The position numbers and the translations under genes were made by a program. A DNA stretch of 64,000 nucleotides from Streptomyces sp. PCS3-D2 (GTDB taxonomy: Bacteria > Actinomycetota > Actinomycetes > Streptomycetales > Streptomycetaceae): the NCBI RefSeq assembly GCF_000612545.2, contig NZ_CP097800.1, positions 2,291,001-2,355,000 of the forward strand, given 5' to 3'. Every line of letters starts with the position of its first letter. Within the stretch, counting starts at the first letter, position 1. Under the pieces are notes generated by a model. It made no database searches and was not told the origin of the DNA. It saw only the letters and a list, made by a program, of their open reading frames with translations. Shown here in pieces: positions 30,420 to 35,315 of the stretch.

Positions 30420-30920
30420 ATGGAACGCATCAGCCCGCCCCTGACCGGGGACGAACGCGAGACCCTCCGCGCCTTCCTCGACTACCACCGGGCCACCCTC
30501 GCCCGGAAGTGCGAGGGCCTCACCGACGAGCAGTTGCGCCGTGCCTCGATGCCCCCGTCCGCCCTGTCCCTGCTGGGCCTGGTACGGCACATGGCCGAGG
30601 TGGAACGGCACTGGTTCCGCCGTGTCGTCGGCGGCGAGGAGCTCCCGCACCTGTGGTCGGACCGCCATGACTTCCAGGCCGCCTACGACGCCTCCGGCGC
30701 CGGCCGGGCCGAGGCGTTCACCGCCTGGCAGGAGGAGGTCGGGCACGCGCGCCGGATCGAGGCGGCCGCCGAGTCCCTGGAGGTGACGGTGTACGTGCCG
30801 CGCTGGGAGGAGGAGGCGTCGCTGCGCCTCGTCATGCTCCACCTCGTCCACGAGTACGCCCGCCACAACGGCCACGCCGACCTCCTGCGCGAGGCGATCG
30901 ACGGCGTGACCGGGGTCTGA
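30420..30920 (+). CDS. DinB-like (DUF664) metal-binding protein
   Basis: 166 residues, a four-helix bundle of the DinB/DUF664 group. The likely metal ligands are His in LVRHMAEVERHWF and the pair in HLVHEYARHNGHADLLREA. Actinobacterial members are thought to be mycothiol- or bacillithiol-dependent detoxification enzymes, but no reaction is shown for this one. The ATG at 30420 has AGGA upstream. A perfect 18-bp palindrome six bases after the stop may terminate it. Confidence 0.85.
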   Translation: MERISPPLTGDERETLRAFLDYHRATLARKCEGLTDEQLRRASMPPSALSLLGLVRHMAEVERHWFRRVVGGEELPHLWSDRHDFQAAYDASGAGRAEAFTAWQEEVGHARRIEAAAESLEVTVYVPRWEEEASLRLVMLHLVHEYARHNGHADLLREAIDGVTGV

Positions 30921-30925
30921 CGGCC

Positions 30926-30943
30926 GTCGGGCCCGGGCCCGAC
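30926..30943. terminator. 18-bp palindrome after the DinB-like gene
   Basis: A perfect GC-rich palindrome lies six bases past the stop, between convergent genes. Confidence 0.55.
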
Positions 30944-30947
30944 CACT

Positions 30948-31004
30948 GGCCTCGGACCACAGACCTCGAACCACAGACCTCGGACGTCACGCCTCGGACG
31001 TCAG
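30948..31004. repeat. Four imperfect 13-16 bp repeats near the ferric reductase stop
   Basis: Four successive units built on CCTCGGAC or CCTCGAAC run from the intergenic gap into the last codons of the siderophore-interacting protein gene. Confidence 0.7.
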
Positions 31005-31613
31005 GCCGCGCGCCAGCCATACGTACGCCGTTCCCGGGTCCCCGAGCAGTTCCGGAAGCTCGGCCCGGACCCGGTCGGCCAACGCCGTGCCCTCGCGCGG
31101 CACCCGGCGGATGTCGTGCCGCTCCCCGTCCAGGCGTACCGGCAGCTCCGCGTCGGAGGCGTGCCGGGTCTCGAACCAGATGGTCGCGGGCAGGCCGGGG
31201 AAGGAGTCCAGCAGCGAGTTGACCGCCGGCAGGGAGGCGGGGTCGCCGATGACCAGCAGGCGTTCCGGGGGCGGGGCCGGGGCGGTGAACCCGGTGCCCT
31301 GGACGGTGGCCTCGATGGTGTCGCCCGGTCGGGCGCGCCGCGCCCAGGCGCTGGCGACGCCGTCGTGGAGCGCGAACTCGAAGCAGAGAGTGCCGGTCCC
31401 GGGATCCGGGTCGACCAGCGTGTACGCGCGCTGGTGCGGCTTGCCCGCGTTCCGGAACCGGGCTCGCACCCACATCGTCGGGTGCAGCGACGGACCGACC
31501 GCGGCCAGCAGCCCGCCGTCGGTGAAGGACACCCGGCGGTAGTGCTCCGTGACGTCTTCGGCCCCGGTCACCGTGAAGGTGAAGTCCTTGCCCCTCAGCA
31601 GCCTGAGGACCAC
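30987..31613 (-). CDS. Siderophore-interacting protein (FAD-dependent ferric-siderophore reductase)
   Basis: 208 residues of the SIP/ViuB family. An N-terminal FAD-binding barrel carries the RAYTLVDPDPGTG flavin motif (RxYT) and FEFALHDGVASAWARRARPG. The C-terminal NAD(P)H domain has LLVIGDPASLPAVNSLL. Family members reduce ferric siderophores in the cytosol to release iron. GTG 31613 is the furthest in-frame start; GGGAGG lies very close to it, so the true start may be slightly different. It is divergent from the acylase gene, with an iron box between, so it should be induced by iron shortage. Confidence 0.9.
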   Translation of the reverse strand: MVLRLLRGKDFTFTVTGAEDVTEHYRRVSFTDGGLLAAVGPSLHPTMWVRARFRNAGKPHQRAYTLVDPDPGTGTLCFEFALHDGVASAWARRARPGDTIEATVQGTGFTAPAPPPERLLVIGDPASLPAVNSLLDSFPGLPATIWFETRHASDAELPVRLDGERHDIRRVPREGTALADRVRAELPELLGDPGTAYVWLARGLTSEA

Positions 31614-31669
31614 GCCCTCCCACCCTTTGCCGACCGCCCTGTTCGCCCCTCCCCACCCGACCCCTATGC

Positions 31670-31688
31670 TTAGGGAAGGCTAACCTAA
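31670..31688. promoter_or_regulatory. DmdR/IdeR-type iron box
   Basis: TTAGGGAAGGCTAACCTAA matches 17 of 19 bases of the actinobacterial iron-box palindrome (TTAGGTTAGGCTAACCTAA). It lies 56 bases before the ferric reductase start and 18 before the acylase start. TATGCT at 31665-31670 could be a -10 for the acylase, so repressor binding would block both promoters. Confidence 0.88.
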
Positions 31689-31706
31689 ATACACGTCGGG
31701 GAGAGT

Positions 31707-33905
31707 GTGAGCAGCGTGAGCAGCGTGAGCAGTGAGAGCGGCCCGGAGCCGTACGCGGGCGTCCGGAGCGGGCCCGGCGGGCGGACCCCGGAATCCTATG
31801 ACGTCTTCCGCGACCCCTGGGGCATCCCCCACCTGCGCGCGCCGGACGAGCTCGGGCTGGCCTACGCCCAGGGCCGTGTCACCGCCTTCGACCGCGCCTG
31901 GCAGCTGGAGGTCGAACGGCACCGCGCCGAGGGCTCCAGCGCCTCCTTCCTGGGCCGGGAGTCCGTCGCATGGGACCGCTTCGCCCGCCAGAGCCGCCTG
32001 GCCGACACCGCCCGCCTCTGCCACGAGGCCCTGGTGGCCGACGATCCGGCGACCGCCGCCTGGCTGCGCGCGTACGTGGACGGCGCCAACGAGGGCCTGG
32101 CCGCCGGCGCCGCCCGCGACGAGCGCTTCGCCCGGACCGGCCTCGCCCCCTCGTCGTGGGAGCCATGGGTGCCACTGGCGATCTGGATCGCCACGCACAT
32201 CCTGTTCGCCGGCTTCCCCACCAAGCTGTGGCGCGAGCGCGTGGCCCGCGCCCTCGGCGACGAGACGCTCACCCTCTTCGCCACCGACGGTCCCCGCATC
32301 GCCGGCAGCAACGGCTGGATGGTGCCGGGCGACCGCACCGCCACCGGGGCGGCGATCATCGCGGGCGACCCGCACCGCTTCATCGAGGACCCGGGCGTCT
32401 ACCAGCAGATCCGCCTGTCCTGCCCGGACTACGACGTCCTCGGCCTCGCCGTCCCCGGTATCCCCGGCCTCGCGCACTTCGGGCACACCGGCTCCGCCGC
32501 CTGGGCCATCACCAACGCCATGTCCGACTACCAGGACCTGTACGTCGAGCGGCTGCGCCGCGACGAGGAGGGCGCCGTCGAGGCGCTCGGCCCGGACGGG
32601 GCCTGGGAGCCGGTCGCGCGCCACACGGAGACCATCACCGTGGCGGGCGGCGCCGACGTCGAGGTGGAGGTCCTGGAGACCGCCCGCGGGCCGGTGATCG
32701 TGCACGCGGACGGCGACCTCGGCGCCGACCCCGCAGCAGGCGCCGCCGACCCCGGACGCGCCGACGGCAGCACGCAGACCCTCTCCCTGCGCTACCCGCC
32801 CCGCGTCCGCCGCGACCTCGGCTTCGCCGCCCTGCCCGCCCTGCTGCGCGCCCGTACCGTCGCCGACATCGACCGCGCCCTCGACGGCTGGGCCGAGCCG
32901 GTCAACGTCGTCCACGCCGCCGACACCGAAGGTGGCCTGCTGCACCGCGTCGCGGGTGCCGTGCCGCTGCGCCACCCCGCGAACCGGCTGCGCCCCGTGC
33001 CCGCGTGGGAGCCGGAGCACGCCTGGCGGGGCTGGGCACCGACCCCAGCCGAGCCCGTGCAGGGCTTCGCCGTCATGGCGAACGCGCGCGGCATCGCCTC
33101 TCCGCTCGGCGTGGAGTTCGCACCACCGCACCGCGCGGACCGCATCCGCGAGCTGCTCAGCGGCTCCGCGGACTGGTCCCCGACGGCGATGGCCGACGTG
33201 CACCGTGACACCCATCTGGCCTCGGCCGAGCCGCTGCTCGCCCTGCTGCCCGCCTTCGAGGGGCTGTCACCGGCCGCGCGGGAACTGCGCACGCGATTGC
33301 TCTCCTGGGACCGGCGCATGGAGGCCGGGAGCACCGACGCCGCCGTCTTCTCGGCCTTCCGGACCGCGACCGTACGGCGCCTCGCCGCCGACCCGGTCTT
33401 CGCGGACCTGGCGGGCGCGCCCGCCGGACCGGCCGTGTTCCACCCGTGGCTGCACCTGGTTCCCAAGATCGGTTACGCGCTCGAAGGCCTGCTGAACAGC
33501 GCGCTGCTGCCGGAGCTGGACCGTGCCGCGCACGTCCGCGCGGCCCTGGAGGAGACGGCTGCGGCGGGCTCCCTCGACGTCCCGTGGTCGCAGGTCCACC
33601 GCCTGGCCCCCTGGCAGGCGGTCCCCGACCCGGCCGGCCCGGAGTGGCCCGGCCTCGGCGGCGATCACGACTGCGTGAACGCCACTTCCTCCGTGCCCGG
33701 CTTCACCGACCTCACCGCCCGCGCTTCGGCCGCCCGTTACGTCTGGGACCTGGCCCGCCGCGAGGACAGCCTCTGGGTCGTCCCGCTGGGCGCCGACGGC
33801 GTCGGCGGGACCCCCCATCACCACGACCAGCTCCCCCTGTGGGCACGCTGCGAACTCGTCCCGGTCGTCACCGACTGGACCCGGCTCACCAAGGAATCGA
33901 TATGA
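31707..33905 (+). CDS. Penicillin-acylase-family Ntn hydrolase, apparently cytoplasmic, iron regulated
   Basis: 732 residues of the penicillin amidase family, enzymes that hydrolyse or form amide bonds to acyl groups after self-cleavage. Ser201, in AGSNGWMVPGDRTATG, matches the N-terminal nucleophile of the mature beta chain, and ATNAMSDYQDLYVE and the Asn region GGDHDCVNATSSVPG near the end are present. Unlike PvdQ or E. coli PGA it shows no signal peptide; the N-terminus is a GTGAGCAGC repeat (SSVSSVSS), then charged residues. The iron box lies just upstream, and its stop overlaps the start of a siderophore-type acyltransferase (ATGA). It may remove or supply an acyl group in siderophore assembly. 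It resembles the gene called desG in work on aryl-desferrioxamines (recalled, unchecked). Confidence 0.9.
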   Translation: MSSVSSVSSESGPEPYAGVRSGPGGRTPESYDVFRDPWGIPHLRAPDELGLAYAQGRVTAFDRAWQLEVERHRAEGSSASFLGRESVAWDRFARQSRLADTARLCHEALVADDPATAAWLRAYVDGANEGLAAGAARDERFARTGLAPSSWEPWVPLAIWIATHILFAGFPTKLWRERVARALGDETLTLFATDGPRIAGSNGWMVPGDRTATGAAIIAGDPHRFIEDPGVYQQIRLSCPDYDVLGLAVPGIPGLAHFGHTGSAAWAITNAMSDYQDLYVERLRRDEEGAVEALGPDGAWEPVARHTETITVAGGADVEVEVLETARGPVIVHADGDLGADPAAGAADPGRADGSTQTLSLRYPPRVRRDLGFAALPALLRARTVADIDRALDGWAEPVNVVHAADTEGGLLHRVAGAVPLRHPANRLRPVPAWEPEHAWRGWAPTPAEPVQGFAVMANARGIASPLGVEFAPPHRADRIRELLSGSADWSPTAMADVHRDTHLASAEPLLALLPAFEGLSPAARELRTRLLSWDRRMEAGSTDAAVFSAFRTATVRRLAADPVFADLAGAPAGPAVFHPWLHLVPKIGYALEGLLNSALLPELDRAAHVRAALEETAAAGSLDVPWSQVHRLAPWQAVPDPAGPEWPGLGGDHDCVNATSSVPGFTDLTARASAARYVWDLARREDSLWVVPLGADGVGGTPHHHDQLPLWARCELVPVVTDWTRLTKESI

Positions 33906-34501
33906 CCACCGCCGCCTCCGCGCGACAGCCCGTTCACACGCACCTCGTCGAGGGCTTCGGCACCGTCACCTTCACCCCGGTCGATCCGACCGCCGACGCC
34001 GGTCTGATCCACGCCTGGGTCACACCGGAGCGGGCCCGCTTCTGGGGCATGGGCGGGGCCAGTCGCGAACTGGTCCAGGAGATCTACGAGGACGTCGACC
34101 GCCGCACCACGCACCACGCGTTCATCATGGCCCGCGAGGGCGTGCCGGTCGCGCTGCTCCAGACGTACGACTGCGCCGAGGACCGGATCAGCGAGTGCTA
34201 CGACGTCGAGCCCGGGGACGTCGGCGTGCACCTGCTGATCGGCCCGAGCGAGGGCGGCCCGCAGCCCGGCTTCAGCGGGAACCTGATGGAGGCCCTCATC
34301 GCCTTCGTGTTCGCCGATCCGGCCAGCCGCCGCATGGTCGCCGAGCCGGACTCCCGCAACACCAAGGCGATCACGCGGCTGGAGCGCACCGGGTTCGTGC
34401 TCGGCCCGGAGGTCGTCCTCCCGGAGATCGACCTGCCCGAGGTCCACCTTCCCGCCAAGCCGGCCCGCCTCGCCTTCCTCAACCCGCCGCGGGCTCGCTG
34501 A
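33902..34501 (+). CDS. IucB/MbtK-type siderophore acyltransferase
   Basis: 199 residues of the GNAT subgroup that carries the AlcB/MbtK conserved domain. These enzymes transfer acetyl or other acyl groups to the hydroxylamine or amine of siderophore precursors such as N-hydroxylysine or N-hydroxycadaverine. Readable blocks are IHAWVTPERARFWGMGG, VALLQTYDCAED, GVHLLIGPSEGG and MVAEPDSRNTKAI. The ATG overlaps the acylase stop by four bases (ATGA), implying translational coupling and a joint role. It ends 23 bases inside the oppositely oriented hydrolase gene. Confidence 0.9.
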   Translation: MTTAASARQPVHTHLVEGFGTVTFTPVDPTADAGLIHAWVTPERARFWGMGGASRELVQEIYEDVDRRTTHHAFIMAREGVPVALLQTYDCAEDRISECYDVEPGDVGVHLLIGPSEGGPQPGFSGNLMEALIAFVFADPASRRMVAEPDSRNTKAITRLERTGFVLGPEVVLPEIDLPEVHLPAKPARLAFLNPPRAR

Positions 34502-35315
34502 GGAAGGCGGTGACCAGCGCCGCCCATTCGGCCGGGCGCTCGGCGAACGGGAGGTGCCCGGTGGGCAGTTCCGCGAGCCGGGCACCCGGCAGGATGTGCG
34601 CGAGTTCTCGCTGGAGGCCGGCCGGGACGAGGAGGTCCTGCGTGGTCACGACCACGAGGGCCGGGACGTCGAGCGCCGCGATCTCGGCCCGCAGGTCCGC
34701 CCCCCGGATCAAGGCGGCGTGGTCGGCCTGGCCCGGCGGCAGCGTCCGGGCGGTGTCCCGCACCAGCTGCCGCACCTCCTGCGCGGAGAGGCCCTCCAGA
34801 ACCGCAGGATTCAGCACGAGCGGGACCAGCAGCGAGGCCGCCAGGTCGGGCTCACCGCGGTCGGCGAGGGCCTTCCAGAGATCACCGGCCAGTTCGAGGC
34901 GGTTGTCGGCGCGCGCGAAGGTGGCCGTCAGCACCAGCGCGGTGACCCGGTCGGGATACCGCGTGGCGACCCGGACGGCGACGTTCCCGCCGAGCGAGTA
35001 GCCGAGTACGGCGAACCGCTGCAGCCCCTCGGCGTCGGCGGCGGCCACCAGCTGGTCGGCCAGCTCGTCGAGGAGGAGCGGCGCCTCGGCCCGCGGGGTG
35101 GCGCCGGCACCCGGGTAGTCGACGCCGACGACGCTGAATCGGGCGGCCAGCTCGTCCAGGACCGCGCCGAAGTTGGCTTCGACGGAGCCGCCCGCGCCGT
35201 GGGCGAGGAGCAGGCCGGGGCCACCGCTCTCGGTGCGGACGGTGCGCGCGTACGCCGCGGCGCCGGCTCCGGAGCGGACGGCGTCGGTGTTGACGGCGTC
35301 GGTGTTGACGGACAT
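34479..35315 (-). CDS. Alpha/beta-hydrolase fold protein
   Basis: 278 residues. The oxyanion-hole motif LLLAHGAGG and the nucleophile elbow GYSLGGN (Ser about residue 105) are present, and the His is in TGHLPFAERPAEW near the C-terminus, so the triad looks complete. The substrate is unknown. The N-terminus has a repeated NTDAV. It overlaps the acyltransferase gene tail to tail by 23 bases, and its promoter region carries two operator-like repeats. Confidence 0.88.
   Translation of the reverse strand: MSVNTDAVNTDAVRSGAGAAAYARTVRTESGGPGLLLAHGAGGSVEANFGAVLDELAARFSVVGVDYPGAGATPRAEAPLLLDELADQLVAAADAEGLQRFAVLGYSLGGNVAVRVATRYPDRVTALVLTATFARADNRLELAGDLWKALADRGEPDLAASLLVPLVLNPAVLEGLSAQEVRQLVRDTARTLPPGQADHAALIRGADLRAEIAALDVPALVVVTTQDLLVPAGLQRELAHILPGARLAELPTGHLPFAERPAEWAALVTAFLSEPAAG

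Follow-up and report, generated by a model that had tools for sequence, protein, structure and literature searches.

The closest described relative of the locus reported here is the desJGH gene set of Streptomyces coelicolor (SCO4048-4050), whose genes are controlled by DmdR1, an iron regulator (Augustijn et al., 2025, PMC12161575). In that report, desJ (SCO4048) and the ferrioxamine reductase gene desF are paralogues, desG (SCO4049) belongs to the penicillin amidase family, and desH (SCO4050) is DesC-like. A desG null mutant made approximately 1000-fold less desferrioxamine B and a desH null mutant approximately 16-fold less, with desferrioxamine E raised in both; loss of desJ increased desferrioxamine B, and complementation of the mutants with single genes, including desG, restored it (PMC12161575). 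The authors proposed that N-hydroxy-N-succinylcadaverine is desuccinylated by DesG and that the product is then acetylated by DesH (PMC12161575). Desferrioxamine B is a medicine for iron overload, and in S. coelicolor its ratio to desferrioxamine E is set by the desG/desH pair. Here we analyze a stretch of 64,000 nucleotides from Streptomyces sp. PCS3-D2 (contig NZ_CP097800.1, positions 2,291,001 to 2,355,000 of the forward strand; hereafter the window), in which the genes at 30987-34501 are identified as a desJGH set by their domain content, their arrangement, the iron box, and their distribution. Resembling an orthologue of the system published in 2025, the locus is in that sense already known; we add to the published work its distribution and relatedness, a desG-desH fusion, and a truncated desJ. 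Its most likely role is a succinyl-to-acetyl exchange on a siderophore building block that sets the output of desferrioxamine B.

The central gene of the locus, desG (31707-33905, plus strand, 732 amino acids, GTG start), encodes an N-terminal nucleophile (Ntn) amide hydrolase of the penicillin amidase family (PF01804, Penicil_amidase, E-value 9.1e-147). It is followed by desH (33902-34501, plus strand, 199 amino acids), which encodes a GNAT acyltransferase of the IucB/MbtK/DfoC-N type (PF13523, Acetyltransf_8, E-value 1.6e-46). The stop codon of desG and the start codon of desH share the sequence ATGA (33902-33905, plus strand), an arrangement that would allow translational coupling. Published desGH loci are recognized as PF01804 and PF13523 genes lying within 1 kb of each other (PMC12161575), and in the window the genes carrying these domains overlap by four bases. 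At the beginning of desG, the triplets GTG AGC AGC occur three times in frame (31707-31733), giving three candidate GTG starts.

The predicted DmdR1 operator lies between desJ and desG at 31670-31688 (plus strand), where TTAGGGAAGGCTAACCTAA agrees at 17 of 19 positions with TTAGGTTAGGCTAACCTAA, which we take to be the iron-box consensus. This is the sole site in the window at three or fewer mismatches and, being near-palindromic, it was matched on both strands; 100 shuffles of the window gave 0 matches. Across the whole genome the pattern matched 9 times on the forward and 8 times on the reverse strand, compared with 0 and 0 for the reversed pattern, and a perfect 19/19 iron box stands beside the desEFABCD genes of the same genome. 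To place the site among its relatives, we used the loci retrieved from named genomes with a DesG query, 52 in number, of which one (L063, 28% identity) was excluded from all counts, leaving 51 close relatives; the regions L075 and L076 seem to be on the same contigs as L012 and L017 and added nothing. Of the 48 orthologous loci that could be assessed, 44 have an iron box with at most three mismatches in the 250 bp upstream of desG, and 0 of the 48 match the reversed control. An Rfam scan of 30900-34700 gave no matches, nor did sigma-70 and terminator scans of 31550-31850. A first-pass annotation of this DNA had described an iron box between a reductase gene and an Ntn-hydrolase gene, the latter overlapping an IucB/MbtK-type acyltransferase gene by four bases, and had pointed to a kinship with desG/desH; the box and the overlap are as described, and the kinship is borne out by domains, layout and iron box.

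The distribution of desG ties it to desferrioxamine synthesis. In the window genome, desEFABCD is on the same contig at 4.86 Mb, 2.5 Mb from the window (desD at C1:4859145-4860923). Among 247 Streptomyces genomes, 148 have a strong desG match, defined as a best E-value of 1e-130 or lower (95 genomes lie at approximately 1e-39 or weaker and 4 in between), and 198 have desD. All 148 genomes with strong desG also encode desD, 48 have desD without strong desG, and 47 have neither (Fisher p = 7e-24, kinship not accounted for). The four intermediate genomes (G010, G078, G111, and G229) were left out of this two-by-two table and inspected separately; each match is a fragment, with desD present in G111 and G229 and absent from G010 and G078. 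Counting these, strong desG occurs in 0 of 49 Streptomyces genomes without desD, two of which keep fragments. The remnants in G010 (L078) and G078 (L080) are accompanied by pieces of desJ, and one desG-negative genome with desD (G002) carries two short desG remnants. A strong match is not proof of an intact gene, as several of the 148 are split or partial. Weaker penicillin-amidase matches are found in all 247 genomes, so the desG/desD pattern is not that of the family at large. The restriction of strong desG to genomes with desD, and its decay to fragments elsewhere, lend support to the pathway assignment that is separate from the mutant evidence.

A similar association was seen in a wider sample of 398 Actinomycetota genomes, in which desG (E-value of 1e-80 or lower) occurs in 27, and 26 of these have desD. 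Seventeen of the 27 belong to Streptomyces, the genus of the window, and 12 of the 17 are also in the 247-genome draw. In nine of the ten genomes from other genera, desG and desD are no more than 10 kb apart (counted by eye). In one of the sampled genomes (G582; L088, 839-8951) an iron box is followed consecutively by desA, B, C, D, G, and H, placing DesC and DesH in one cluster. Matching anatomy, the iron box, and the dependence of desG on desD are all observed in the window genome and its relatives.

What DesG might cleave can be approached through its predicted active site. Self-cleavage is expected between Gly200 and Ser201, with Ser201 (codon 32307-32309) as the nucleophile. We aligned the window protein with orthologues from 25 of the 52 loci (L051, L055, L056, L059, L060, and L062 were omitted as partial or frame-broken, the others as redundant), and G200, S201, H223, R224, Y232, H257, N270, N459, and R476 are invariant in 26 of 26 sequences. 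Compared by eye with the structure 4hsr, DesG residues S201, H223, N459, and R476 match the catalytic Ser1, His23, active-site Asn, and Arg of the glutaryl/cephalosporin acylase beta chain. The invariant Arg224, Tyr232, His257, and Asn270 would surround the expected acyl pocket, and a carboxylate pocket in DesG is plausible from the sequence.

Among solved chains, DesG is closest to 35sz, from the penicillin acylase family (5e-103), and then to glutaryl-7-ACA acylase (4hsr/4hst, 5e-66), followed by D-succinylase (7ea4 and 7eby, 1.8e-30); penicillin G acylase (1.6e-22) is a weaker relative. The nearest solved relatives with a known substrate, glutaryl-7-ACA acylase and D-succinylase, are thus acylases of dicarboxylic monoamides. 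The first-pass annotation had instead taken the pyoverdine acylase PvdQ as its guide, but the best PvdQ chain (1.3e-8) falls far behind both enzymes, and DesG scores 42 bits over residues 199-332 against the NCBIfam PvdQ model, well below its cut-off of 950. The greater similarity of DesG to these two enzymes than to PvdQ fits desuccinylation, although a ranking by sequence is no proof of specificity. Given this kinship, a single enzyme and a single substrate would suffice for a direct test of desuccinylation; no study of the DesG enzyme appeared by title in the literature on desJGH, desGH, SCO4049, and SCO4050. Ahead of the conserved core, the N-terminus of the window protein has a best 12-residue mean hydropathy of 0.67, and the value is at most 1.22 among the 48 proteins measured by this crude test (L054, without a core match, and L055, too incomplete, are left out). 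The apparent lack of a hydrophobic stretch resembling an export signal fits action on a cytoplasmic intermediate.

The partner of DesG points to the same pathway. Among solved chains DesH is best matched by the desferrioxamine protein DfoC (5o7o, 2.6e-26) and next by MbtK (1e-15), and it shares 40% identity with DesC of the same genome over the aligned part. In every assessable locus (49 of 49) desH lies immediately downstream of desG, and a four-base overlap is available in 33 of them when the desH start nearest to -4 is taken. The remaining spacings are -8 in ten loci, -11 in two, -14 in one, and +26 in one where the desG frame is broken; in the last two, from Kribbella turkmenica and K. steppae, DesG and DesH form a single open frame (L052:5001-7604 and L058:5001-7607). 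Another member of that genus, K. speibonae, is described as a desferrioxamine B producer (PMC7411998), and desG-desH fusions have been named in S. atratus and Micrococcus (PMC12161575).

Together with the published genetics, these observations lead us to propose the following route. At low iron, DmdR1 would leave the iron box and allow transcription toward both desJ and desGH, as expected from the box and from the work in S. coelicolor. DesG would strip the succinyl group that DesC has placed on N-hydroxycadaverine, and DesH, probably translated together with DesG by way of the ATGA overlap, would add acetyl in its place. An acetylated monomer cannot undergo ring closure, so that DesD would yield the capped linear desferrioxamine B instead of cyclic desferrioxamine E. 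DesJ would act as an accessory ferric-siderophore reductase, unneeded for the cap swap itself. We regard this exchange on the monomer by a desJGH locus, favoring desferrioxamine B, as highly probable, and the first-pass proposal that the gene pair edits acyl groups on siderophores is upheld by the published genetics in this outline, although the release of aryl acids and a requirement for the reductase find no support.

Several observations weigh against this route or parts of it. The likeness to SCO4048-4050 is one of domains, layout, and the published description, and the co-occurrence counts are uncorrected for relatedness. An iron box within 250 bp is absent from 4 of 48 loci (L044, L050, L052, and L062), and G078, which has no desD, retains a DesH match over residues 8-194. 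An orphan desG stands in G590 (E-value 9.6e-175; L087, 8226-10286, minus strand), a genome with no IucA/IucC gene; it is flanked by sensor kinase and sulfate permease genes, with no desH and no iron box in the surrounding 19 kb. The acyl pocket also differs from that of class I glutaryl acylase, in which the glutarate is held by Arg255 of the SY-77 enzyme, position 57 of the beta chain, and replacement of this residue by Gly or Ala is described as giving weak activity on long-chain lactones (PMC8197700). By hand count on the alignment, DesG has His257 at beta-57 in place of this Arg, and 4hsr, of class III, likewise carries His there. Finally, the monomer as the substrate of DesG is taken from the published model, and the desG null is more severe than the desH null, which a plain two-step model does not need. 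The latter could possibly reflect a polar effect: given the shared ATGA, a premature stop in desG might lower the translation of desH as well and so contribute to the stronger desG phenotype. Restoration of desferrioxamine B by desG alone indicates that polarity is not the whole cause (PMC12161575).

The unequal mutants are explained more directly if DesG acts later, desuccinylating a linear desferrioxamine released by DesD, such as the trimer G1, before DesH acetylates the freed end to give desferrioxamine B. Such a swap on the oligomer accounts for the greater effect of DesG loss with no extra assumption, and G1 is described as a known Streptomyces product and a substrate of DesD (PMC9571020). 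Action on the oligomer would lead to the same end products and would fit the published mutant profiles equally well, and the mutants do not tell the two substrates apart; nor does the sequence of DesG discriminate between a monomer and an oligomer pocket. The published model acts on the monomer, and we consider the later swap unlikely, if worth keeping in mind. A bolder form, to which we give a similarly small chance, has DesG and DesH exchange caps as one coupled machine on the assembled chain (linear trimer or dimer), with the freed hydroxylamine end passed directly from one enzyme to the other, as the overlapping ATGA and the fused DesG-DesH frames might suggest. If this were true, the orphan DesG of G590, where no siderophore synthetase of the NRPS-independent (NIS) type is encoded, would indicate that the enzyme is used on foreign ferrioxamines.

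Two further explanations appear much less probable. In the version of the first-pass annotation, aryl or other acyl caps are added to and removed from finished siderophores while the reductase releases iron. The penicillin amidase family membership of DesG agrees with this, desG was first proposed to serve phenylacetyl- or aryl-capped desferrioxamines in some strains, and aryl- and fatty-acyl-capped desferrioxamines are among the capped products of desGH-bearing strains (PMC12161575). However, the same report states that no arylated desferrioxamine has been identified in S. coelicolor, and it is the acetyl-capped desferrioxamine B that the desG mutant loses (PMC12161575). The weaker kinship of DesG with penicillin G acylase than with glutaryl acylase argues in the same direction, as does a reductase gene that is not found in 12 of 47 loci and is truncated in the window, and we judge this version very improbable. 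Still harder to credit is a beta-lactam acylase, or a PvdQ-like quorum-quenching acylase, lying near an iron box by chance. A 2016 review lists SCO4049 as a putative penicillin acylase, using it solely as an outgroup (PMC6273383), and DesG does show the weak PvdQ family match noted above. The dependence on desD, the conserved desH partner, and the iron box disfavor both forms, and the distance of that match from the model cut-off disfavors the second. The monomer exchange by DesG and DesH remains our favored reading.

The reductase gene of the window departs from its relatives. DesJ (30987-31613, minus strand, 208 amino acids) is a siderophore-interacting flavin reductase (FAD_binding_9, PF08021, 4e-11; SIP, PF04954, 5.4e-8) that is truncated at its C-terminus, where it ends in ...YVWLARGLTSEA; the SIP domain matches only profile positions 3-86 of 119. 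The GYWR motif is reached in 34 of 35 DesJ orthologues, the exception being L061 (Streptomyces sp. G-G2), and in L027 no match to the first 43 residues was found. The missing end could not be recovered by reading 30800-31200 in all three minus-strand frames. In its place are 14-bp tandem repeats in two abutting arrays (30941-31007; Tandem Repeats Finder 30941-30985, score 69, and 30978-31007, score 53), at a position where four of four aligned related loci retain the end of desJ. An alternative reading frame for the reductase (30832-31653) matched no family and was replaced by 30987-31613. DesJ of this strain is probably impaired, although an assembly error may lie behind the truncation. Across the assessable loci, desJ was found in 35 of 47, and with 12 lacking a detectable copy the gene seems dispensable, which agrees with the published mutant. 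The first-pass annotation had the reductase release iron; a role for it as a necessary partner fits neither these counts, nor the truncation, nor the increase in desferrioxamine B on desJ loss (PMC12161575). The truncated desJ makes the window strain a natural test of the role of this gene.

The genes around desJGH are less constant. In 42 loci of approximately 12 kb, DesG and DesH are each present in 42 and DesJ in 31, and the neighbors include an upstream GNAT protein (25), an MMPL protein (23), a mycothiol transferase (22), a kinase (17), and an alpha/beta hydrolase (5). These flanking genes were rejected as parts of the module, being found near desGH in only 5 to 25 of the 42 loci. In the window the alpha/beta hydrolase gene (34479-35315) converges on desH and overlaps its end by 23 bases. 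Elsewhere in the genome there are two more pairs of IucA/IucC synthetase genes, at 2.03 Mb on C1 (L065) and at 0.35 Mb (L066), the former accompanied by another Acetyltransf_8 gene, and these pairs likely represent other siderophore clusters.

Set beside the known systems, DesG has in common with PvdQ the broad Ntn acylase family, a siderophore context, and deacylation. PvdQ is periplasmic, removes a long fatty acyl chain, and is not known to have an acyltransferase partner, whereas DesG is paired with DesH. The glutaryl-7-ACA acylases (class III 4hsr/4hst and class I SY-77) share with DesG the Ntn fold family, the Ser nucleophile, His23, Asn, and Arg, and they remove the acyl group of a dicarboxylic half-amide, but their natural substrate is another one; at beta-57 DesG carries His instead of the class I Arg, and by the crude test it lacks a stretch resembling a signal peptide. 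D-succinylase belongs to the same family and removes succinyl groups, in its case from N-succinyl D-amino acids. DesH falls in one GNAT family with DesC and the N-terminal acyltransferase domain of DfoC, both of which act on N-hydroxycadaverine; unlike DesC, it is tied in Streptomyces to desG rather than to desABCD. The desJGH set of S. coelicolor is the closest of all, sharing with the window the three gene families and iron-box (DmdR1) control, and in both species the set stands alone, apart from desABCD, with desH following desG. The two sets differ in length, DesJ having 208 amino acids in the window and approximately 241 in S. coelicolor, as implied by the description of the mutant, and DesG having 732 and approximately 782, respectively (PMC12161575).

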